DNA of 64,000 bases from an uncultured Micrococcaceae bacterium (GTDB lineage Bacteria; Actinomycetota; Actinomycetes; Actinomycetales; Micrococcaceae), in the NCBI GenBank assembly GCA_947502645.1, contig CANNAD010000002.1:558001-622000 (forward strand). The letters run 5' to 3'. Positions 37,728-50,847 of this stretch are shown one piece after another. The position numbers were made by a program, and so were the translations under genes. Every line of letters starts with the position of its first letter. Position 1 is the stretch's first letter. The notes beneath the pieces were generated by a model, which was not told where the DNA came from, did no database searches, and saw nothing but the letters and a program-made list of their open reading frames with translations.

Positions 37728-39229
37728 GATGAGTTCCGCAGCCGGCGCAACGACGAGTCCTTACCCAGAATGACCATGGACTCAAAGAGCGGCGGGGAAA
37801 TACGCCGCCCGGAGACCGCTACACGGACGGGGCCGAACGCCAGACGCGGCTTCAACCCCAACCCGTCAACCAGAGCCTCGCGCAAAGCCGCCTGGATAGT
37901 CTCCGCAGACCACTCCTCCAACGGCTCCAGTACTTCTAGGGCCGCATCCAGCACCTCAACAAGGTTCGTAGGCATTCCCTTGCGGGCGTCGTCCGCAACA
38001 TCAATGGCGTCGTCGGACTTGAACAGGAAAGAAAGCATCTCCGGAGCCTCACCCAACAGGGTGATACGTTCCTGAACCAACGGCGCAGCCTCGCGGAGAA
38101 TCTCCTCCTCGCGAGGAGTCAGGGTCTCCCCCACCAAGCCCGCCTGCCGTATGTACGGAACCAGCCGAGCGCGGAAATCCTCCGCCTCGAGCATCCGCAC
38201 ATGAGTGCCGTTGATGGCCTCAGCCTTCTTCAGATCAAAACGCGCAGGATTGCCCAGCACATCGTGGATATCGAAATTCTTCACGAGCTCATCAACAGTG
38301 AAGATGTCCTCATCCGCAGAGAGTGACCAGCCCAGCAAGGACAAATAGTTCAACAGCCCCTCACGGATAAATCCGCGCTCCCGGTGCAGGAACAGATTCG
38401 ACTCAGGATCCCGCTTGGACAGCTTTTTGTTCCCAGCTCCCATGACGTATGGAAGGTGCCCGAACAGCGGGATGTACTGGGCAACACCGATCTCCACCAG
38501 CGCCCGGTACAACGCGATCTGCCGCGGTGTGGAGGACAGAATGTCCTCACCACGCAGCACATGAGTGATTCCCATCAGCGCATCATCCACCGGGTTCACC
38601 AACGTATACAGCGGCGCACCATTAGGACGCACCAACGCGTAATCCGGGACCGTACCAGCCTTGAACGTGATCTCACCACGCACCAGGTCCGTGAACGTGA
38701 TGTCCTCATCCGGCATCCGCAAACGCAGCGCCGGCTCACGGCCCTCAGCACGGAACGCGTCAACCTGCTCTGACGTCAGATCCCGGTCAAAATTGTCATA
38801 CCCCAACTTGGGATCCCGGCCGGCAGCCTTGTGCCGCGCCTCGGTCTCCTCCGGCGTCGAAAAGGACTCATACACATAACCGCCATCAACAAGCTTCGCT
38901 ATGACGTCCTGATAGATATCGCCGCGCTGTGACTGCCGGTACGGCTCATGCGGCCCGCCGGCCTCAACACCCTCATCCCAGTCGATACCCAACCAGCGCA
39001 GTGCCTCAAGCAGCTGCCCGTAGCTCTCCTCGCTGTCCCGCTTGGCATCCGTATCCTCGATGCGGAAAATCATCTTCCCGCCCGTGTGCCGGGCATAAGC
39101 CCAGTTGAACAAGGCCGTCCGGATCAGACCCACATGAGGGGTACCCGTAGGGGAAGGGCAGAAACGGACACGCACCGGAGTGGCGTCGTCGACAACAGGA
39201 AGCACGGAGGAATCAGCAGAAATAGTCAT
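37703..39229 (-). CDS. gltX: Glutamyl-tRNA synthetase
   Basis: Class I aminoacyl-tRNA synthetase of 508 residues. It has the HIGH-type motif in [40 protein letters not shown], the zinc-free insertion, and the KMSKS-type motif [10 protein letters not shown]. The C-terminal anticodon domain ends [20 protein letters not shown] then [19 protein letters not shown]. The last dozen residues look unlike the family and lie in the overlap with the island's beta-helix gene, so the original 3' end may have been replaced. Function should be retained because the anticodon domain is otherwise whole. Confidence 0.95.
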
Positions 39230-39265
39230 GGTCCCCCCAGTTTAGACCGTCCAGGACAAAGCGAA

Positions 39266-39313
39266 ACCGGCCCCGAACCCAGTCACCATACGGTCACCAG
39301 GTTCAGAGCCGGC
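39266..39313 (-). terminator. Terminator of the secreted-peptide gene
   Basis: Arms 39300-39313 and 39266-39279 pair over about 13 bp (two G-U pairs) around a 20-base loop, and on the minus strand TTTCGCTTTG follows. It lies 30 bases after the peptide stop codon and 36 bases before the gltX start, so it separates the peptide transcript from gltX. Confidence 0.55.
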
Positions 39314-39342
39314 TCCTCAGATCCGCCGCTTGGAAGCTCGGA

Positions 39343-39501
39343 CTAGTTCGGCCAGTTACCAACGTTCGGCCAGTTGCCAACCATGACCGTGTATGAGCCA
39401 TCGGCGGCAGAAACAGTTGCGTCACTCGCAGAGGCAGCTGAGGCGCCCCCCACTGCAACGAGACCAGCCAACAGCAGTGAGGCGGAAAGCTTTTTAAACA
39501 T
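39343..39501 (-). CDS. Small secreted peptide precursor with tandem VGNWPN repeat (candidate signal peptide/pheromone)
   Basis: A 52-codon gene below most gene-finder limits. ATG 39501 follows AAGGA at 8 bases. The product has a textbook signal peptide: basic start MFKKLSAS, hydrophobic core LLLAGLVAVGG, and a small-residue cleavage zone ASAASAS near residue 26. About 14 residues follow, then the C-terminus is two exact copies of VGNWPN, residues 41-52. The two 18-base coding units differ at one silent site (GGC/GGT). A divergent TPR protein gene lies 157 bases away. This is the layout of an exported pro-peptide whose C-terminus is cut out as a signal, as in Phr/PapR systems, but a small structural peptide cannot be excluded. 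Confidence 0.75.
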   Translation of the reverse strand: MFKKLSASLLLAGLVAVGGASAASASDATVSAADGSYTVMVGNWPNVGNWPN

Positions 39502-39566
39502 GATGAATCCTTATCATTTGGAGTACCTCCGAGACCGTTCATGTTTCTGGAGGGCGGAACCACATA

Positions 39567-39595
39567 ATCATAAGTTCCCGCTCATATCGCCACAA
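39567..39595 (-). promoter_or_regulatory. Candidate promoter of the secreted-peptide gene
   Basis: On the minus strand TTGTGG (39590-39595), a 17-base spacer, and TATGAT (39567-39572), about 65 bases before the peptide start codon. The same -35 and spacing occur before the chitinase gene at 42301-42329. Confidence 0.5.
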
Positions 39596-39658
39596 TGCCA
39601 ATCGTGGGAAGATGTGAGGAGTCGTACGCGGCTTCCTAAGTAGAGAGAGGGTATCGCG

Positions 39659-40693
39659 GTGGTGGAAACCAGCACATCGTCGAGCAGAATTTCGTTTGAA
39701 CTCCGAGTCCATGAGTGCTGGCGTGAGCGCAACTACGAGGGAGTCCGGACCATCGCCGACCAGGGGATGGAAGCCGCACGGAATGCAGGCGACGAAGAAG
39801 CCTGGTGGAACCTGCTGTTTATCCGCGCACAAAGCCTTCGCGAAACCAACGACTTCCAGGAATGCGCCACCGACGCTCAAAAACTCCAGGAACACCCCCT
39901 CACGGCCTCATCCCCCGGACTCGAGGCCCGCGTGTCGACACTGCTATCTGCGGCCCGTCACGGATGTGGCCGCCTCCAGGAAGCCATCACTGAAGCACGG
40001 CGCGCCGTCGAGGCCGCAAATCGGGACAGCACCGTAGCCGAAGTGCGCATCGACGCCCTGCAGGCTCTCATTGCAGCCCTCGCAGAATCCGGTCATATAC
40101 AGGACGCCTGGCGTCACTGCAGAACAGTTTCAGAACTGCTGACGGCCTCCGTCAATCCCCAGACCGCAGGGAAGGCGAACTGGGTGATCGGCAACGTCGC
40201 CTTCCTCCGCGGCAAGCTCGACGACGCCGTCGCCTACCACCGCAAAGCCGCCAGCGAGCTCTCCCCCATGAATGACCTCCAACTGTGGGCCAGATTCAAC
40301 CGGGCATCCGCGCATATGCGCCTCGCTGCAGGGCTCGCAGGCGAAGAAACGCTCGAGTTCATTGACCGTGCCGAAATCGCCGAATCCATTGTTCAGGGAG
40401 GCGGCGCCGAACAACTCCAGCTCAACATCACCCGTGCCCACTGGCTGCTGGTCGAAGGCCGCTCCCACGACGCCGCCGTCATGCTCCAGACCATCTGCCA
40501 GTCCACTGAGCCCCTCGCAACGCACACCACAGCCGAAGCACACGTGCTACTGGGCGAAGCGCTTCATCAGCAAGGACAGACCGCTCAGGGGATCAAGGAA
40601 ATTACCATCGGCGAAGCCCTCTTCCGGGACGCCGGCGCAGACCACCGCGCCAAACTGGCGCAGGAAACCATCGACAAGCTCCGCGCAAGCTAG
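39659..40693 (+). CDS. TPR-repeat protein, candidate peptide receptor (Rap-like)
   Basis: A 344-residue cytoplasmic protein built entirely of helical TPR-type repeats, e.g. EAWWNLLFIRAQSLRETNDF, AEVRIDALQALIAALAESGH, AGKANWVIGNVAFLRGKLDD and AEAHVLLGEALHQQGQTAQG. It has no N-terminal helix-turn-helix, no signal peptide and no membrane span, like the Rap phosphatases rather than PlcR or Rgg. GTG 39659 is preceded by AGAGAGAGGG. It is divergent from the secreted-peptide gene and converges with the chitinase gene, overlapping at CTAG. The pairing with a peptide is what suggests a receptor; TPR proteins have many other jobs, so this stays a hypothesis. Confidence 0.75.
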   Translation: MVETSTSSSRISFELRVHECWRERNYEGVRTIADQGMEAARNAGDEEAWWNLLFIRAQSLRETNDFQECATDAQKLQEHPLTASSPGLEARVSTLLSAARHGCGRLQEAITEARRAVEAANRDSTVAEVRIDALQALIAALAESGHIQDAWRHCRTVSELLTASVNPQTAGKANWVIGNVAFLRGKLDDAVAYHRKAASELSPMNDLQLWARFNRASAHMRLAAGLAGEETLEFIDRAEIAESIVQGGGAEQLQLNITRAHWLLVEGRSHDAAVMLQTICQSTEPLATHTTAEAHVLLGEALHQQGQTAQGIKEITIGEALFRDAGADHRAKLAQETIDKLRAS

Positions 40694-42255
40694 TCCTTGC
40701 CGTCCTCCAGCTGCTGCAGCACGTCCTCGTCATCCAACATGTTCCACGCGGAGCTGTCTGCACCCTGAAGCGCCGCCTGCGGGCTGTCCGCGCGGCTCCA
40801 CCACTTCGCTTCGAAGGCATGGCCGTCAAAGAGGACCTTGCTGCCCTTCGTATACACGGTGTCCGCATCCCAATCAGGGAATGTTCCCGCGGGGACAGTC
40901 ACCTCCGGTAGCGGTGTCTCTCCCGGGAGAACCGGGCCAATAAGCTGCCAGGGAGTCTCGTCAGCCTTCAGCACCGGGTTGTCCGGGACAGCTTCCTTCG
41001 CCCACCACTTGGCTTCATACACGTTCCCGTGCCATACCACGCGGTCGCCCTCAACATACGTGGCTTCCTCAAACCACACCGGATACGGGCTCGTCTCAGG
41101 ATCATCAACCACCGCTGTGGCAGTCGCCGTCGGCTCAGACGTTGTTGGCGCAGTACTCAGTGTCAGGCCCCGACCGGAGAAACCATTGCCCAGCACCGTG
41201 GCAAAAGACCGGCCCTGCTGATCGATACCACTGCAGCTGTCCGACACCACAGAGAGATCCGGATAATTCGCGCTACACGTTGCGTCCCGGTTCAGGGACC
41301 ACATAGACATCCGCCCCACACCCATTTCCAGGGCGAAAGCGTTCAGCTTCTCAGCCGCATCGAGATCAAAAACCTCAGCAACGACGTCGTTCTGGCCGAT
41401 CATCGGCGTGATACCCAGCTTCCGCCACAACGTCTGCGGACCAAGATCAATACCGGCACGCTCATACAAAATGCCCAGCTGACGGTGCGTGGACACAGCT
41501 GCCTGCTTCGACGCCTCAAACATGGACATGGACTCCGCACGGCTAGCACCGTAATCCATCGTCATGATGTTCACGCCGGCAAGGTCTACCGACGAATCCA
41601 GGAACTGGCCAACCGCCGTCGTCCCATCCCCCGTCAACCCCGTGGGCGCAACCGGCAAGGTCAGCCACACATTCAACGGCTTGTCATCATCCCGGAAATC
41701 CTTCTGCAACCGGGCAACAGCCTCTGCACGCCGCTTCCCAGCCACAATGTCCTTGAGGTTCTCGCCCTCAATATCAAAATCCACGGTGGACACGTCATAA
41801 CGCTCAATCACCGAACGATACGCGGACACCAACTCATCAACATCCGTACACGAAGTAGCCAACTCATCATTGAGAAGACCACCAAAGGAGATAGCAACCT
41901 CGCCGCCCTCCTGCGTGAAACGGGCAATACGCCGATCCAGATCCATAGTGGACGCAGCCTCATCAAACCCGTAATAGCCACCCCAGGACGGCTTACACGG
42001 GTCCTCAGGATCAGCCACAATGAACGAGAGCACAACGCTTCCGCCAGCCTCCGTGGCCGGGGTCTCAAACTCATAGAACGGCGTAGCCGTAGCATCCACA
42101 TACCCAGCGAACCACGACTGACCATCCGCAGCCGCCCGCTGATCCGTAAACCTGCCCCACCCCACAAAAGACGCCCCCACCAAAGCCGCCGCCAACAAAA
42201 CAACGAGTGCAAGGCGTGGAACGGACAGCCTTCGACCCGGAAAGTGCTTAGACAC
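40690..42255 (-). CDS. Membrane-anchored GH18 chitinase-like protein with two CBM5/12 modules
   Basis: A 521-residue protein. Residues 12-33 form a signal-anchor (LALVVLLAAALVGASFVGW). A GH18 domain spans about 45-345 with SFGG at 123-126, the catalytic DFDIE at 159-163 (Glu163 as acid) and MTMDYG. Two chitin-binding CBM5/12 modules follow a Pro/Thr/Ala linker: one around YVEGDRVVWHGNVYEAKWWA (about 395-425) and one around YTKGSKVLFDGHAFEAKWWS (about 460-495). It is divergent from the GT2 exopolysaccharide synthase gene, so it may trim or release that polymer instead of digesting food chitin. The enzymatic class is firm; the role is inference. Confidence 0.88.
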   Translation of the reverse strand: MSKHFPGRRLSVPRLALVVLLAAALVGASFVGWGRFTDQRAAADGQSWFAGYVDATATPFYEFETPATEAGGSVVLSFIVADPEDPCKPSWGGYYGFDEAASTMDLDRRIARFTQEGGEVAISFGGLLNDELATSCTDVDELVSAYRSVIERYDVSTVDFDIEGENLKDIVAGKRRAEAVARLQKDFRDDDKPLNVWLTLPVAPTGLTGDGTTAVGQFLDSSVDLAGVNIMTMDYGASRAESMSMFEASKQAAVSTHRQLGILYERAGIDLGPQTLWRKLGITPMIGQNDVVAEVFDLDAAEKLNAFALEMGVGRMSMWSLNRDATCSANYPDLSVVSDSCSGIDQQGRSFATVLGNGFSGRGLTLSTAPTTSEPTATATAVVDDPETSPYPVWFEEATYVEGDRVVWHGNVYEAKWWAKEAVPDNPVLKADETPWQLIGPVLPGETPLPEVTVPAGTFPDWDADTVYTKGSKVLFDGHAFEAKWWSRADSPQAALQGADSSAWNMLDDEDVLQQLEDGKD

Positions 42256-42446: not shown

Positions 42447-44780
42447 ATGCAACACCAGACTGTCAAAAAGCCTGCCGAAATTTCGGATCCCGTCCAACCG
42501 ACGGCTCGCCGGCGCCAATGGGGGGCCGAAAAACGGTCCGAACCTCTCTCGATCGTCCATCCCACACCATCACGCGGAAAGATCGCCCGCGGCCGGATCG
42601 GGATCGTCGTCACCATCCTCGCGTGGCTCACCTACGTCATCTCCACGATCCTTCGCCAACTCTCCGAGAACCCCAACGCAGGATTCCGGTTCGAGCTCGA
42701 AGCGGCGTCGTACCTCGTAGTGGTCACCTTCCTGACCTTCTCCGCACTCATGTACCTCGTGGCCCGGCAAGGCGCGCTCTACCGCTTCCGCGACCACCGG
42801 CGCGTACCCCGCGGCGAACTGGACAGGCACTTCGCCACCTACGACGACGGCATCACCGTCCTCGTCCCCTCCTACGCAGAAGAACCCCAGGTAGTCCGCG
42901 GCACCCTCTGGTCCGCCGCCCTGCAGGAATTCCCGGACCTGCGCGTAGTCCTCCTCCTCGATGACCCGCCCAACCCCACCGACCCAGCCATCCGTGAACG
43001 CCTGGACACCACACGCGCACTCACCACCGAGATCGAGGCACAACTCCTCGCACCCGCAGGACGGTTCACCGCCGCCCTGGAACAATTCAAAGCCAGAGTC
43101 GAAGACCGCACCGCCGACTCCGCAGAGGAACTCTCCATCCTCATCGGCGAATACGACGCCGCAGCCCAATGGCTCGAAACCATGGCAGAAAACGAAAAGG
43201 TCGAAGACCACGTCGACGAATTCTTCGTGGACCTGGTCCTCATGGGACTGGCCCGCGAACTCCGCCTCACCATCCTCGCCCTCGAAGCCGCCCAAGCCCA
43301 GCACGACGCCCCAAACACCGGAAGAACCATAGAACTCTACCTACGGCTCACCCGGATCTTCTCAGCACGGCTGGAAACCTTCGAACGCAAACAATTCGCC
43401 TCCCTCTCGCACGAAGCGAACAAGGCGATGAACCTCAACGCGTACATCTCCCTGATGGGCAAACGCTGGCGGCGCGAAGAAACCTCCGCCGGCAAAACCG
43501 TCCTACGACCAGTCACAGCGGACGCTGCGGACGCAGCAGACATCATGGAGATCCCGGACTCCACCTACCTCCTGACGCTCGACGCCGACTCCCTCCTGCT
43601 GCGCGATTACTGCCTACGGCTGGTATACCTGCTCGAATCCCCCGGCAACGAACGCGTCGCCGTCACACAGACGCCCTACTCATCCTTCCGCGGAGCACCC
43701 ACCCGGATCGAACGCGTAGCCGGCGCCACCACAGACATCCAGCACATCCTCCACCAAGGCATGACCTACTACGGCGCCACCTTCTGGGTAGGAGCCAACG
43801 CCGTCATCCGCAAAGACGCCATCGAAGATATCGTCGAAGTCGAAGACGTAGGCGGATTCGAAATCCGCACCTACATCCAGGACCGCACCGTCATCGAAGA
43901 CACCGAATCCAGCGTGGACCTCGGCACACACGGCTGGACACTCGTCAACTACCCCGAACGCCTCAGCTACAGCGCCACACCCCCAGACTTCGGCGCCCTC
44001 GTAGTACAACGACGCCGATGGGCCAACGGCGGACTACTCATCCTGCCCAAACTATGGAACCAGCTCCGCGAACGCCGATTCCGCCGCGACCGCATCCTCT
44101 ACCGGGAAGTGCTCCTACGGGTCAACTACATGGCGTCCATCACCTGGGCCAGCTTTGGCCTGGTATTCCTGCTCGCATACCCCTACGACAGCCGGCTACT
44201 CAGCCCCGTAGTGTTCCTCGCCGCCCTCCCCTACTTCCTCGCCATGGGAAGCGACCTACGAGACTGCGGACACCGATTCAGCGACATCTTCCGCATCTAC
44301 GGATTCAACCTCGTCCTGCTGCCCGTCAACCTGGCCGGCGTCCTCAAATCCCTACAACAAGCATTCACCGGCGAGAAAATCGCGTTCGTCCGTACCCCAA
44401 AGGTCAAGGACCGCACCGCCGCCCCGGCACTATACGTCGTCGTGCCCTACGCCATCGTTGCCTTCTCGCTACTAACGCTCTGGCGAAGCATCCTCGAAGG
44501 CAACATCGGCAACGCCGCGTTCGCAGGACTCAACGCACTCCTCGCCGCCTACGCCATCCGCGCATACATCGGCATCGGCAATTCAGTCGTCGATATAGCA
44601 CTTGGTATGTTGAACTGGTTGTACGTGGCACCACGTCAAAAACGTGCTTCAGTGTCACCGGTCGTCCCCAAAGCACCGGAAGAAGTGGACTGGACGTCCA
44701 TCCTCTACCACGGCGACCGCCGACTGAACCGAGACCTCAGAGGAGAAAACGACCGCCGCCGCCGCGTCTCACTGCGGTAA
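42447..44780 (+). CDS. Processive GT2 membrane glycosyltransferase (exopolysaccharide synthase)
   Basis: A 777-residue membrane enzyme of the cellulose/chitin/hyaluronan synthase type. Two spans lie near residues 48-100 (GIVVTILAWLTYVISTIL, LVVVTFLTFSALMYLVA), then a large cytoplasmic GT-A domain with VLVPSYAEEP, VVLLLDDPPNPTD, LTLDADSLLL (about 374), IEDTESSVDLGTHGW and the processivity motif QRRRW (about 519). Four or so spans follow. The GT domain contains an unusual insertion of about 120 residues (180-300), rich in Glu and Ala. There is no PilZ domain, so any c-di-GMP control must act otherwise. First gene of a run with the STAS-like and GGDEF-EAL genes. Confidence 0.87.
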   Translation: MQHQTVKKPAEISDPVQPTARRRQWGAEKRSEPLSIVHPTPSRGKIARGRIGIVVTILAWLTYVISTILRQLSENPNAGFRFELEAASYLVVVTFLTFSALMYLVARQGALYRFRDHRRVPRGELDRHFATYDDGITVLVPSYAEEPQVVRGTLWSAALQEFPDLRVVLLLDDPPNPTDPAIRERLDTTRALTTEIEAQLLAPAGRFTAALEQFKARVEDRTADSAEELSILIGEYDAAAQWLETMAENEKVEDHVDEFFVDLVLMGLARELRLTILALEAAQAQHDAPNTGRTIELYLRLTRIFSARLETFERKQFASLSHEANKAMNLNAYISLMGKRWRREETSAGKTVLRPVTADAADAADIMEIPDSTYLLTLDADSLLLRDYCLRLVYLLESPGNERVAVTQTPYSSFRGAPTRIERVAGATTDIQHILHQGMTYYGATFWVGANAVIRKDAIEDIVEVEDVGGFEIRTYIQDRTVIEDTESSVDLGTHGWTLVNYPERLSYSATPPDFGALVVQRRRWANGGLLILPKLWNQLRERRFRRDRILYREVLLRVNYMASITWASFGLVFLLAYPYDSRLLSPVVFLAALPYFLAMGSDLRDCGHRFSDIFRIYGFNLVLLPVNLAGVLKSLQQAFTGEKIAFVRTPKVKDRTAAPALYVVVPYAIVAFSLLTLWRSILEGNIGNAAFAGLNALLAAYAIRAYIGIGNSVVDIALGMLNWLYVAPRQKRASVSPVVPKAPEEVDWTSILYHGDRRLNRDLRGENDRRRRVSLR

Positions 44781-44825: not shown

Positions 44826-45209
44826 ATGGCTACTGAGGCGATGACGGACACAAACGACACACCGGAACCCTCCTACGAGGGCATAACGCGCATCGTGCTG
44901 CCCCCCGGCAAAGACATCACCCAAGAAATGGCCGCCGCCGCCAGCGCAGAAGTGAAGCTCGCCGCCACTGCAGGAGGACGCCCCCTCCTCCTCATCATCA
45001 GCGGCGTACACTCCATCACCCGAGAAGCCCGCACCGTCTACGGTGAAGCCACCGTGTCCACCGCCATCGCCGTCGTCGGAGAAAGCCCCGTAGACCGGGT
45101 GATCGGGAACTTCCTCCTCGGAGGCGCCGCACCAAGCTGCCCCAACCAATTCTTCAGCTCAGAAGCAGAAGGCCTCGCCTGGCTTGAAGGCTACCGCAAT
45201 GACCAGTGA
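44826..45209 (+). CDS. STAS/SEC14-like (DUF7793-type) protein
   Basis: A 127-residue cytoplasmic protein resembling a family annotated as STAS/SEC14-like in Micrococcaceae: GRPLLLIISGVHSITREART, STAIAVVGESPVDRVIGNFL, and CPNQFFSSEAEGLAWLEGY. It has no signal peptide. ATG follows a GGGGGAGAAACGACG site. It sits between the GT2 synthase and the GGDEF-EAL genes and overlaps the latter by 11 bases (ATGACCAGTGA), so it is co-translated. A sensor or anti-sigma-antagonist-like role is possible; function unknown. Confidence 0.65.
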   Translation: MATEAMTDTNDTPEPSYEGITRIVLPPGKDITQEMAAAASAEVKLAATAGGRPLLLIISGVHSITREARTVYGEATVSTAIAVVGESPVDRVIGNFLLGGAAPSCPNQFFSSEAEGLAWLEGYRNDQ

Positions 45210-46752
45210 CCCCCGCCTGCCCAAACTCGTAGACTGGATCGTAGCCGTAGCCCGCGGCGAACTCAGACACGAAATGACCCCCAGCAGCGCACGCGACGAC
45301 GTCGACGCCGTCATCACCGGACTGAACCTCCTCGTCGAAGAACTCGACACCGTCTACCAACAGTTCGAAGACCGGGTAGAACAACGCACCGCCGAACTCC
45401 ACGAAGCCCACCTGCAAATGCAGAAAATGGCCATGACAGACCCCCTGACCGGCCTGTCCAACCGTGTTGCCCTCGTAGCCGAACTCGACAAAGCACTCGC
45501 GTCCCACGCCGCCGGCGCGGAAAATGCGCCAGCACTGCTGCTCCTGGACCTCGACTCCTTCAAAAACGTCAACGACAGCCTCGGACACGACGCCGGCGAC
45601 CTGGTCCTCAAAGTCGTCGCAGACCGGCTACGAAACGCGGTCCGCGCCACCGACTTCGTCGCCCGCCTGGGCGGAGACGAATTCGCGATCCTCGTCCCGG
45701 ACGCAACCCTCGGAGTCGCGCAAGGCGTGGCCAACCGCATCCTCGACGCACTCAACAAACACATAGAACTCGAAGACCTCAAAATCTGGGCACGCGCCAG
45801 CATCGGCCTACGAGTCGCCGACAAGGACCAGAGCTCCGTCAGCCTCCTCCAAGACGCAGACACCGCCATGTACGCCGCAAAAGACAAAGGCCGCAGCCGT
45901 GTCAGCGTCTTCGAACCCGTCATGCTCTACGCCCGCCAAGTCCGCAACCAAACAGCCTCCGAACTCCGCGAAGCCATCGCCACCGACCAACTCGACCTCC
46001 ACTACCAGCCCGTCGTAGACCTCCGCAACGGACACATACAAGGCGTAGAAGCACTCGTCCGCTGGAACCACCCCACCCGCGGCCTCATCATGCCCGACAG
46101 CTTTGTACCCGTCGCAGAAGAAATAGGCGCCATCGTAGACCTCGACCGGTGGGTCATGACCGCAGCACTACGACAACTCCAGGACTGGAAAACCCGCTTC
46201 GACATGGACGAAGCCTTCCAACTCCGCATCAACGTCTCCTCCATGGACCTCCAACAACTAGACCTCGTAGACTTTGTGCGCAGCGCCCTCAAAGACAGCG
46301 GCATACCCCCACGCAACGTAGTCCTCGAAATCACCGAAACCGCACTCATCACCGGCGGCGACGTGGAAAGCTACTCACTCCTCAGCCTCCAGAAACTCGG
46401 CGTCTGCATAGAAATCGACGACTTCGGCACCGGCTACTCCTCCATCAGCTACCTGCGCAAACTACCCGTCAACATGGTCAAAGTAGACCGCACACTCGTA
46501 GCCGAACTAGCCGACGACGCCCAACAAAACTCCTTCGTCGCCGCCATCCTCCAACTCATCCGCGCCGCCGGACTCGACGCCGTCTTCGAAGGAATCGAAA
46601 CCAGCGAACAAGCGGCCCAACTCCGTGACATGGGCTGCATCGGCGGACAAGGCTACTTCTTCAGCCGGCCCCTGCCCCTTGAGGCGATCGAAGGGTTGCT
46701 GCGCGAATCCGCTGTGCTCCCGTTGGCCACGGAGCCCGCGCTCGGGTCCTGA
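45199..46752 (+). CDS. GGDEF-EAL protein, c-di-GMP cyclase/phosphodiesterase
   Basis: A 517-residue soluble protein from ATG 45199 (MTSDPRLPKLVDW); the open frame begins 15 bases earlier at TTG. An N-terminal helical segment (about 30-75, with coiled-coil EDRVEQRTAELHEAHLQMQK) may dimerise. The GGDEF domain is intact (RLGGDEFAIL) and has the inhibitory RxxD site (RATD) five residues before GGDEF. The EAL domain keeps EALVRW, LRINVSS, VLEITETAL, DDFGTGYSS, KVDRTL, and EGIET, so both activities may be present. It probably sets local c-di-GMP for the exopolysaccharide locus. Confidence 0.93.
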   Translation: MTSDPRLPKLVDWIVAVARGELRHEMTPSSARDDVDAVITGLNLLVEELDTVYQQFEDRVEQRTAELHEAHLQMQKMAMTDPLTGLSNRVALVAELDKALASHAAGAENAPALLLLDLDSFKNVNDSLGHDAGDLVLKVVADRLRNAVRATDFVARLGGDEFAILVPDATLGVAQGVANRILDALNKHIELEDLKIWARASIGLRVADKDQSSVSLLQDADTAMYAAKDKGRSRVSVFEPVMLYARQVRNQTASELREAIATDQLDLHYQPVVDLRNGHIQGVEALVRWNHPTRGLIMPDSFVPVAEEIGAIVDLDRWVMTAALRQLQDWKTRFDMDEAFQLRINVSSMDLQQLDLVDFVRSALKDSGIPPRNVVLEITETALITGGDVESYSLLSLQKLGVCIEIDDFGTGYSSISYLRKLPVNMVKVDRTLVAELADDAQQNSFVAAILQLIRAAGLDAVFEGIETSEQAAQLRDMGCIGGQGYFFSRPLPLEAIEGLLRESAVLPLATEPALGS

Positions 46753-48255: not shown

Positions 48256-50847
48256 TCAGTCGGACCAGATGCCTTTGTTGAGGAGCGCAACGGCACTGTC
48301 GAGAATGCCATCCGAGGTATCAGCAACCGCTATCCTCACTGTCAATGGCGTTCCGGGCGTCACCTTCACAGAACACGTAATGGGTACCGTCAAGCCATCC
48401 ATCGCCGTGCTGTATCCACTGACCCCACCCGCATTACTAATGTAGTACTTCGAGTTGAAGTGGTCATTGACGTTGTTCACGGCCACAGGCAAGGACGTAC
48501 CTGGCACCAGTGCGCAGTTTTTGCCGTTGACAAATACGCCCATCACGTCGTTGAACGCACTGTCCACGTACTCTGGATATTCCTCGCTGGCGAAGAGGAA
48601 CTTGACATGGAGCGTGTCACCGGCCGGGACCACCGTCGCCCAGTAGCCAGCGGCATCGTAGGTGATGGTTCCACCAATGAAGGCGGATAGTGTGGGACTG
48701 CCCGTACCTCCGAGGTTGGTTGAAGCCTCGTTGTCCGCGGGCCCAACCGAATCCTGCATAGTACCCGTGGAGAGAATCCAGGCAGGACCACCGGGCCCGA
48801 AGTCGGGTACCTGACCCCACTGGGCTGCATCTCCTATGCCGCCAACATCCACCACACCGATTCCCGGACCGAACACGTCCTTCGCAACATCATCAACCGG
48901 CGGTTGCTTACCACCGCAGGCATCGCCGTGCCACAGATTGGCAGACTTCGTGAACTCCTTCTTCCACTCCGGCGTCAACTTGATACCGAACTTCTCGACA
49001 CCAGCAACGAGTCCGACAGCGCCGTTCACTCCAACATCCAGGGCACATGTATCTGTCCCTGTGACGTACTTACCGTAAACATCAAAACCGGCGCTGATTC
49101 CCGCCATGCCGTAAAGTTTCGCCGTCAGCGTTGGGCCTACTGAGACTGACGAACTACTGGTCAGGGTCGGCTGAGACATCGTCGCCATGCCATCGCCGTC
49201 GACCTCAGCAATTTTTTTGAATTTCCCGTCCTTCCAAGCCATACCCACCGACGTTGATGTTGATGCTTTTGCCGTAGCGGCAGCATTGGCATTCCACTGG
49301 CTCTTTATGTTGAGGTCCACTGACGAGTTGAACTCCACGGCAACTGGTACGGGTCCAACCTGAATATTGACCCAGGTATTGACCAACCCCAGACTCCGGT
49401 TTGCAGAGCCCTTCAGCTCACCCGCAGCCGTGACAGTTGTCTCCGCAGCAAGCGACGTATCCAGGGTGAACTGTGCCTCCTTCAATTTGAGCCAGCCGAT
49501 GTCCACCGTGGCTTTCACACCGGAATCGATAGCAAACTCGGCCGTCAAATCCAGCGTCCCTGACCCCTGTACGTCAATATGCTTCCAGGCTGTACCGCTT
49601 GTGGATTTGCTCAACTTATCGGCATACGTGAACTTCTTCTTGTAGAGGGTGGCCTCCGCGGCCGGACTCGATGATGCGTTAGGTGATCTCTCAAGCCCCG
49701 GGGCAACACCGTCCCTGTCCTGGGGGACCGCCAACGGATCGGAACCAGCCCCCGTCACAGGAAGGTCGATCACCTCGACGCCTTCAGCTGGCACAAATTC
49801 CTGCTCCACGATCGTTCCCGATGTGATCACCGGACCATCAGTAGCAAAAATGGCGTCCGGCAGTTGCGCTGGCTCTGTGGCGGCAACCTGCTGCCCGTTG
49901 GTCGCCGTCGTCACCGTCTCTACCCGGACCAGAAGACCATCTGGAGTAGTAGGAGAGAACCCGGCGATAAGAACGTCACCGGCATCAACATCCGGTACAG
50001 CCCCGCCCGCCGGACCAAAGGTCACCGTCTCCTTGACCGGATCCACCTTCTGAACCGCCGACCCGTCCTGCAGAACAATGGCCTCCGGTGTCAACACCAC
50101 ACCATCCACCTCACCCGGCAGAGAGTACCTGTACAGATACGCAGCCATGGCATCCCGGTTGATCGGCTGCAGAGGACGATACGTACCATCCGCCCATCCC
50201 GTGGTGATCCCCGACTGCTGAAGCCACACCATCTCGCGGTAGTACAGAGTTGACTTGTTGATGTCCTTAAACGGAGAAACCGCCGCCAGGGAAACACTCG
50301 GTGAACCCGCATACCGGTACAGGAACGCCGCCATGGCATCCCGGTTGATGGGCTGAAGAGCACGGTAGGTACGCGAGCCGTCCTTTTCCGTCCAGCCAGT
50401 GGAAATGCCCTTCGAATAAAGCCAGGTCATCTCCTTGTAGAACTGTTGCCCCGTTGACAAATCCTTGAACGGGGATTTGGCGGGGGCCTTGAACTCCGGC
50501 TCACCTTCCAACCGGTACAGGAAGGCCGCCATGGCATCCCGGTTAATCGCCTGCAATGGGCGGAACGTACCATCCGGCCATCCGGTGGAAATGCCCTCAT
50601 TGGCCAACCAGGACATCTCCTGGTGGAACATCATGCCGTCCGGCACGTCGGCGAATACAACGGATTTGTCCACTTCCGACGCCGCCACGCTAACCGTTGG
50701 AGTTGCCGCCGCCATTGGCGCAACCGTGAAGGCGGACACAAGGCCCCCCACGAGCCCGGCGGAGATCAAGAGCCGCTTACGCCTCTGATGACCGCGCCCA
50801 TAAAATGTCTTACTGACCCCCCGTTGCGAACGAACCATCTCATCCAT
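48256..50847 (-). CDS. Large secreted SLH-repeat protein with choice-of-anchor L domain
   Basis: An 863-residue exported surface protein. After a basic N-terminus and signal sequence (LLISAGLVGGLVSAFTVAPMA), three SLH-type repeats follow (about 66-240), each with a FxDV or FKDx opening and a repeated RDAMAAFLYR or RDAMAAYLYR end. SLH modules bind wall glycans. A middle region of beta-type sequence with many Thr/Ser/Ala residues (about 400-640) precedes a C-terminal domain with LHVKFLFASEEYPEYVDSAF (about 747-766), the signature of choice-of-anchor L. It probably is a cell-surface or adhesion protein. Neighbours do not clarify its role. Confidence 0.85.
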   Translation of the reverse strand: MDEMVRSQRGVSKTFYGRGHQRRKRLLISAGLVGGLVSAFTVAPMAAATPTVSVAASEVDKSVVFADVPDGMMFHQEMSWLANEGISTGWPDGTFRPLQAINRDAMAAFLYRLEGEPEFKAPAKSPFKDLSTGQQFYKEMTWLYSKGISTGWTEKDGSRTYRALQPINRDAMAAFLYRYAGSPSVSLAAVSPFKDINKSTLYYREMVWLQQSGITTGWADGTYRPLQPINRDAMAAYLYRYSLPGEVDGVVLTPEAIVLQDGSAVQKVDPVKETVTFGPAGGAVPDVDAGDVLIAGFSPTTPDGLLVRVETVTTATNGQQVAATEPAQLPDAIFATDGPVITSGTIVEQEFVPAEGVEVIDLPVTGAGSDPLAVPQDRDGVAPGLERSPNASSSPAAEATLYKKKFTYADKLSKSTSGTAWKHIDVQGSGTLDLTAEFAIDSGVKATVDIGWLKLKEAQFTLDTSLAAETTVTAAGELKGSANRSLGLVNTWVNIQVGPVPVAVEFNSSVDLNIKSQWNANAAATAKASTSTSVGMAWKDGKFKKIAEVDGDGMATMSQPTLTSSSSVSVGPTLTAKLYGMAGISAGFDVYGKYVTGTDTCALDVGVNGAVGLVAGVEKFGIKLTPEWKKEFTKSANLWHGDACGGKQPPVDDVAKDVFGPGIGVVDVGGIGDAAQWGQVPDFGPGGPAWILSTGTMQDSVGPADNEASTNLGGTGSPTLSAFIGGTITYDAAGYWATVVPAGDTLHVKFLFASEEYPEYVDSAFNDVMGVFVNGKNCALVPGTSLPVAVNNVNDHFNSKYYISNAGGVSGYSTAMDGLTVPITCSVKVTPGTPLTVRIAVADTSDGILDSAVALLNKGIWSD

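Follow-up and report, generated by a model that had tools for sequence, protein, structure and literature searches.

To our knowledge, intracellular peptide pheromone receptors of the layout discussed here, with a TPR protein encoded next to a small secreted propeptide, have been described mainly from Bacillota, and in the Rap–Phr systems the two genes are co-directional. As far as the accessible portion of one survey extends, receptors of the RRNPPA family have at their N-termini either an HTH (Rgg, NprR, PlcR, PrgX and AimR) or a three-helix bundle (Rap and NprR), and they are reported from Firmicutes genera (PMC9765709); a second survey, again in its accessible portion, analyzed only complete Firmicutes genomes besides viruses (PMC10075063). 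For Arthrobacter, the available text of a review on Actinobacteria lists LuxR-like, AAA and REC proteins (PMC4748050). Phr3T and Phr105 are described, in an excerpt of their source, as containing tandemly repeated pheromones of 5–6 residues (PMC11343458). Searching open-access PMC with preprints excluded, we recognized no paper on the peptide–receptor pair described below, or on its motifs, among the matches listed.

The locus studied here lies in a 64,000-nucleotide stretch of DNA (the window) from a genome of 2.67 Mb, for which an initial annotation had proposed a peptide pheromone and its TPR receptor; the description of the two genes given there held up. The propeptide gene (39343–39501, minus strand, ATG start), called as an ORF and having homologues beside homologous TPR genes, encodes 52 residues laid out as a predicted Sec-type signal peptide, a short spacer and two C-terminal copies of VGNWPN, with the ORF ending in VGNWPNVGNWPN. 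An 18-base tandem repeat at 39346–39381 accounts for these copies (two units, 94% match, one mismatch), and the single mismatch is silent, as had been claimed, because both units read VGNWPN. The first unit (39364–39381, minus strand) is predicted to be pheromone from the repeat together with family-wide purifying selection on the motif codons, and the second, C-terminal unit (39346–39363, minus strand) from the ORF translation and the repeat. Divergently oriented at a distance of 157 nt, the TPR gene (39659–40693, plus strand, GTG start) encodes a 344-residue protein matching Pfam TPR_2 above the cut-off, in which a locally built profile found no HTH, in agreement with the absence of a DNA-binding domain noted earlier. 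It has no signal peptide as judged by eye and is a predicted cytoplasmic peptide receptor, with both location and peptide binding being inferred. Rfam gave no match in 39200–39800, and no promoter- or terminator-like sites were found in 39200–39760; that no sigma-70-like promoter is seen in the divergent region weighs against the pheromone reading. No informative matches were obtained with PHROGs for the TPR protein and the peptide, or with PADLOC for the TPR protein and the GGDEF-EAL protein encoded farther downstream. A weak NCBIfam match of propeptide residues 1–27 to the DWW-type pheromone model (E 0.0071; 16.7 bits, the model's cut-off being 29) was discounted as similarity between signal peptides.

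Like Bacillus Rap–Phr, the locus combines a small propeptide, its export being predicted here, with an adjoining HTH-less TPR receptor, the predicted fold of which aligns with Rap structures solved with pheromone; unlike Rap–Phr, it belongs to another phylum, has no sequence homology to that system detected in our searches, and shows a divergent gene order, a Trp-Pro core in the peptide and a GGDEF-EAL neighbour. The tandem repetition of the pheromone unit in the propeptide resembles that in Phr3T and Phr105. About half of the family carries an XRE-type HTH before the TPRs and has an adjacent secreted propeptide, as in PlcR–PapR and NprR–NprX, from which these pairs differ in coming from Actinomycetota, in a pheromone with up to 8 repeats and in having no RRNPPA family model among the matches obtained.

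We determined the distribution of the receptor in several overlapping samples. Relatives of the TPR protein were found in 55 of the 198 genomes of the relatives sample, and a profile search over 395 sampled genomes of its family found it in 221, covering 17 of 32 genera. It is rare farther out, with 18 of 297 genomes in the order sample (15 of the 18 being from the same family) and 4 of 197 in the class sample. A scan of one genome per species gave 302 relatives, and the best 80 of these, hereafter called the named loci, included 77 with titles of Arthrobacter, Paenarthrobacter or Sinomonas, from which the family of the window is inferred to be Micrococcaceae. Named loci and relatives-sample genomes overlap. 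Over all fetched loci, after exact duplicates and four partial receptor rows (two each in L184 and L213) had been left out, there were 157 distinct receptors as defined by their TPR domains, 82 without and 75 with an HTH; both the size of the family and the presence of an N-terminal HTH in about half of it go beyond what the initial annotation had described. The partial rows included a G057 receptor split over two frames, a split seen in the L184 receptor, and two tandem receptor genes occur per locus in L182, L064 and L067, the WP motifs in L182 differing between IDDWPH and VGNWPG. Arthrobacter-like loci were met in two public records, L071 and L125, that bear the titles Vibrio cholerae strain 35D and Acidobacteria MAG, respectively, the titles probably being wrong or the records contaminated.

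Co-occurrence of peptide and TPR genes in related genomes had been proposed as a check of the pheromone interpretation, and it was borne out. At least 700 bases of upstream DNA were available for 78 of the 80 named loci, and in 77 of these 78 a signal-peptide-like ORF, divergent from the receptor gene, had Trp-Pro in the mature part, the motif fitting [GN]x?WP in 76. Among signal-peptide-like ORFs of the same 80 loci, called by a simple hydrophobicity rule and not by SignalP, that motif was found in 76 of 109 in the divergent zone versus 11 of 1214 elsewhere, and at least two motif copies in 42 of 109 versus 1 of 1214. Counting distinct receptors having upstream DNA, a peptide lay beside 78 of the 79 that lack an HTH and 65 of the 75 that have one, although the 65 include at least one WP ORF that is there by chance (L221). 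Of the HTH-less receptors only the first one in L064 has none, the second receptor of that locus having a peptide, and the ten HTH-bearing misses are L022, L200, L185, L210, L172, L187, L189, L214, L175 and L176; L172 does have an ORF containing NDWP, but one that does not pass the signal rule. We relied on position beside the TPR gene, since a sequence search with the propeptide alone was unreliable, giving mostly noise in 157 of 198 genomes at E values up to 10. The pairing extends to other genera, where the motif reaches up to 8 copies (L177 and L178), and to family f17 (L174, VGGSWPT three times), and perhaps to family f37 (L218). Short ORFs without a signal peptide but ending in VGDWPD lie beside HTH-TPR genes of genus g32 (L222, 2798–2971, minus strand, in the same place as in L210; L184, 2345–2518, minus strand; and L185) and could be leaderless pheromones. 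The genome containing the window has a second receptor, with an HTH (L173, 3340–4614, minus strand; G000:C1:644366–645328), for which we found no clear signal-peptide partner, a point against the pheromone reading. A divergent ORF of 52 residues next to it (L173, 4691–4846, plus strand), with a hydrophobic start and the ending QNDWPISYPR, may be its peptide.

The propeptide motif is mostly [IV][GN]xWPx, in 1–8 copies, and so the C-termini are not of the variable, patternless kind that according to the initial annotation would have refuted the interpretation. Positions −3 to +2 were identical across all copies in 92 of 94 arrays, a comparison that L127 entered with a wrong ORF, so that its row should be distrusted. 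The constancy of Trp and Pro is circular because peptides were picked by WP; this does not apply to the I or V at −3, found in 68 of 78 HTH-less and 57 of 65 HTH propeptides, or to the place of the motif, with at most one residue following WP before the chain ends in 42 of 45 single-copy HTH-less propeptides. Selection on the peptide had been deduced earlier from the one silent difference in the window, which by itself is too weak for such a conclusion; it is the family-wide count that supports purifying selection on the motif, as estimated from codon comparisons. In 95 arrays of at least two units, the motif codons of neighbouring units differed by 294 silent and 3 replacement changes (pS 0.454, pN 0.001), with about 125 silent and 193 replacement changes (pS 0.382, pN 0.206) in linker codons of evenly spaced arrays having at least three units. 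With silent divergence this high, copy identity is not easily explained by recent duplication or gene conversion. These counts drew WP ORFs from anywhere in the fetched loci, and related arrays are not independent. Across the family the core varies (for instance VGSWPF, VGYWPY and VNNWPY), and it differed in 21 of 175 pairs of HTH-less receptors at least 75% identical to each other; close receptors thus mostly share a core, and fast specificity switching is not shown.

The AF2 model of the window TPR protein was confident (pLDDT 92.6, pTM 0.88) and all-helical, with 17 long helices. It aligned with a Rap protein solved with pheromone (8rsv; Z 25.8, 3.9 Å, 315 residues), RapF (Z 25.1, 4.0 Å, 315 residues), NprR (Z 23.4, 4.6 Å, 313 residues) and AimR (Z 22.2, 5.5 Å, 302 residues), the aligned Rap residues starting at about 42. 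Unrelated TPR proteins aligned equally, however, as seen with APPBP2 (Z 27.6, 3.3 Å, 343 residues), MalT (Z 26.0, 3.8 Å, 338 residues) and LGN (Z 21.9, 6.7 Å, 314 residues), and the top Foldseek matches were designed TPRs and LGN; because of such proteins, fold rank was not taken as proof of membership. The model of an HTH-bearing relative (pLDDT 80.9, with a poor HTH part) had LGN on top (Z 27.2, 3.7 Å, 320 residues), with the best Rap behind (Z 21.8, 5.4 Å, 325 residues). A peptide groove, the lack of which would have counted against the earlier interpretation, is therefore likely on the evidence of the model, while the fold is not specific and kinship remains unproven. Neither the Pfam and NCBIfam matches of the window protein nor its 20 PDB sequence matches included an RRNPP(A) receptor model or an RRNPP receptor, respectively, which does not exclude remote homology. 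With sequence kinship thus undetected, we did not file the protein in RRNPPA; it has no HTH, and a three-helix bundle was not looked for separately.

Two asparagines, Asn179 and Asn214, each four residues after an invariant Trp, are found in all 82 HTH-less rows, and among the 75 HTH rows the first is present in 72 and the second in 66, the second being Ile in the additional receptor of the window's genome. Both were kept in 139 of 143 receptors having a WP peptide versus 5 of 11 without (Fisher P = 5e-6, uncorrected for phylogeny). In RapF, according to the part of the source that was accessible, Asn227 is strictly conserved among Rap proteins, holds the peptide backbone and is needed for peptide binding (PMC3601957); equivalence of Asn179 or Asn214 with this residue has not been established. 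HTH-TPR receptors without a convincing WP peptide and with one or both Asn lost are those of L187, L189, L214/L220, L221, L175 and L176, and those of L022 and L200 have no peptide yet keep both Asn.

An XRE HTH precedes the TPRs in homologues from Sinomonas, many Arthrobacter and other genera, as well as in the second copy of the window's genome. The locally built profile detected it in 107 of 224 receptor hits, duplicates included, and Pfam HTH_31 and HTH_3 were matched by all four HTH-bearing homologues scanned. This PlcR/NprR-like layout, with the HTH at the N-terminus, is absent from the window's branch. In a tree of 89 receptors, obtained by thinning the 157 at 85% identity, the 60 HTH-less ones formed one side of a single branch (support 90/86, and present in 94% of 200 bootstrap trees). 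The tree was midpoint-rooted and has flagged long branches (L216, L174, L189, L203 and others); loss rather than gain of the HTH is inferred because outlying rows carry it.

The initial annotation had also pointed to c-di-GMP and exopolysaccharide genes nearby. They are present, and as sensible outputs they are backed by synteny, the output itself being inferred. Directly beyond the TPR gene lies an inserted polysaccharide pair, the first gene of which (40690–42255, minus strand) encodes a protein with CBM5/12 above and a weak GH18 match below the cut-off, and the second (42447–44780, plus strand) a family-2 glycosyltransferase (GT2) with the cellulose and PNAG synthase models CelA and PgaC as its nearest models, both below their cut-offs. 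A 127-residue DUF7793 protein follows (44826–45209, plus strand), its gene overlapping the start of that for the GGDEF-EAL protein (45184–46752, plus strand, TTG start at 45184 or ATG at 45199), which was identified by Pfam and is the predicted output enzyme. The latter carries GGDEF, RxxD and EAL motifs, and GG[DE]EF, an RxxD inhibitory site and an E[AV]L motif were present in 55 of 55 linked GGDEF-EAL homologues, from which enzyme activity is inferred. By tblastn, 55 of the 57 HTH-less named loci had a GGDEF-EAL gene on the same strand farther downstream, and none of the 23 HTH named loci did; as for the remaining two HTH-less loci, the L108 sequence ends before the place, and L074 has no GGDEF-EAL in the 9 kb available. 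In the relatives sample all 25 genomes having a placed HTH-less receptor had such a gene on the receptor's strand and no more than 5 kb away, downstream in 21 and upstream in 4. Twenty-three of these 25 were scanned for an HTH, with G073 and G079 classed by open-frame length only; the other 30 genomes with a receptor comprised 20 with a scanned HTH row and ten judged by open frames of at least 415 residues (G011, G040, G046, G052, G063, G068, G070, G075, G086 and G112).

The context around the receptor/GGDEF-EAL pair varies between groups. Allowing 6 nt either way, the GGDEF-EAL frame of 12 named loci starts no later than the TPR frame ends. In the window the two genes are 4.5 kb apart with a minus-strand gene in between, making one operon unlikely there, and such a gap of about 4.5–5 kb with a minus-strand gene was seen in the window plus six more of the 25 genomes (the G073 gap excluded) and in 7 of 55 named loci. 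The GH18-like/GT2 pair was found near the receptor in 7 named loci, in a same-genus genome and in the deep-branching L179–L181 and L186. Other genes recur as well, with identities checked on one member each: near HTH-less receptors only, a histidine kinase gene upstream (31 of 80 named loci), a methyltransferase (22 of 80) and a prolyl-oligopeptidase (16 of 80), and at HTH loci only, exporter-type ABC transporter genes upstream (19 of 80). Because of this recurrence, synteny by itself does not single out GGDEF-EAL near HTH-less receptors. The methyltransferase and the prolyl-oligopeptidase-type peptidase lie some kilobases upstream (for example L116, 4611–5417, minus strand, and L090, 2159–4375, plus strand), and the peptidase might be relevant to peptides that contain Pro, or its presence might be no more than synteny.

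We consider it probable that the pair is a peptide pheromone with its cytoplasmic TPR receptor, acting Rap-like on the GGDEF-EAL enzyme in the HTH-less branch, with cleavage, re-import, binding and output all inferred. What can be read from the genomes is the pairing of the genes, the selection on the motif, the presence or absence of the HTH and the linkage to GGDEF-EAL; no binding, secretion or mutant data lie behind the pheromone–receptor reading, which as proposed by the initial annotation is nevertheless supported, peptide binding, import and output remaining inferences. The 52-residue propeptide would be exported by Sec, processed to a short peptide containing Trp-Pro (probably VGNWPN in the window) and re-imported by an oligopeptide transporter (six OppA-like SBP_bac_5 proteins are encoded in the window's genome), whereupon the TPR protein would bind it in its groove. 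Receptors of relatives in which an XRE HTH is present at the N-terminus would then act on transcription, as PlcR or NprR do, and in the HTH-less branch the receptor would most likely contact the linked GGDEF-EAL enzyme in a Rap-like manner, thereby setting c-di-GMP and, in loci like that of the window, the making of polysaccharide by the GT2 gene pair. The proposed input here is a secreted peptide, unlike in SiaC–SiaD, where SiaC is no TPR peptide receptor. The likeness is that a partner protein would set the activity of a GGDEF enzyme, since in Pseudomonas aeruginosa, as the accessible part of the source has it, a binding partner activates the diguanylate cyclase (PMC8457831). GGDEF-EAL is the best candidate target of the HTH-less receptor because it is the most constant neighbour. 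The stronger proposal, that a TPR pheromone receptor family of Actinomycetota underwent a single loss of its DNA-binding domain and came to be wired to GGDEF-EAL, so that a secreted Trp-Pro hexapeptide directly sets c-di-GMP and thereby polysaccharide by protein contact, as a quorum-sensing peptide feeding into a second messenger, is one on which we remain evenly divided.

It is possible, if rather unlikely, that the pair is real but that the HTH-less receptor acts on something else, say an HTH-TPR paralogue or a two-component protein, with GGDEF-EAL being merely an old neighbour. Rap proteins, in the portion of the source available, mostly act on response regulators (PMC3601957), and the histidine kinase gene is confined to HTH-less loci; moreover, the GGDEF-EAL subfamily also exists in genomes without an HTH-less receptor (G035, G061, G084 and G039, for example), and the long gap with its minus-strand gene in the window and elsewhere fits that explanation. 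An old neighbour would, however, have to have stayed with the receptor across chromosomal contexts and through a changed order (upstream in 4 of 25), with frames meeting or overlapping in a dozen named loci, and yet be found at none of the 23 HTH loci. We think it very improbable that the WP peptides serve as secreted antimicrobials or in interactions between bacteria, with the TPR protein as an immunity or regulatory protein. Bacteriocin loci also pair small secreted peptides with a regulator, and the ABC exporter genes at HTH loci, together with the methyltransferase and the prolyl-oligopeptidase at HTH-less ones, would suit such a function, but these genes differ between the branches while peptide and receptor stay, the HTH-TPR homologues are regulator-like, and motifs of 5–6 residues, identical within arrays, are by inference better suited to a pheromone. 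Hardly any weight remains for the peptides acting extracellularly as wall- or polysaccharide-binding repeats beside a TPR gene placed there by coincidental synteny: the short Trp-containing repeats and the nearby carbohydrate-binding domain would agree with that, whereas the pairing persists over several genera and neighbourhoods, including HTH-TPR proteins beside other genes, and loss of a conserved Asn tends to accompany absence of the peptide (again without correction for phylogeny, and with L022 and L200 as exceptions).

Our best reading is thus that the pheromone–receptor pair works like an RRNPP system in Actinomycetota, with one branch probably controlling c-di-GMP and here polysaccharide. 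If this is right, a family of bacteria common in soil and on surfaces possesses a peptide language readable from its genomes, and a natural experiment is at hand, with a single receptor family of which one branch is transcriptional and the other is linked to c-di-GMP. The DUF7793 protein might be a partner of the GGDEF-EAL enzyme; tblastn matches to it were found in 52 loci (overlapping ones included), either beside GGDEF-EAL or some 2.4 kb upstream of the receptor. Elsewhere in the window, an 863-residue protein (48256–50847, minus strand) has SLH-like repeats, as judged by eye, containing GWPDG, the likeness of which to the peptide motif is probably due to chance.
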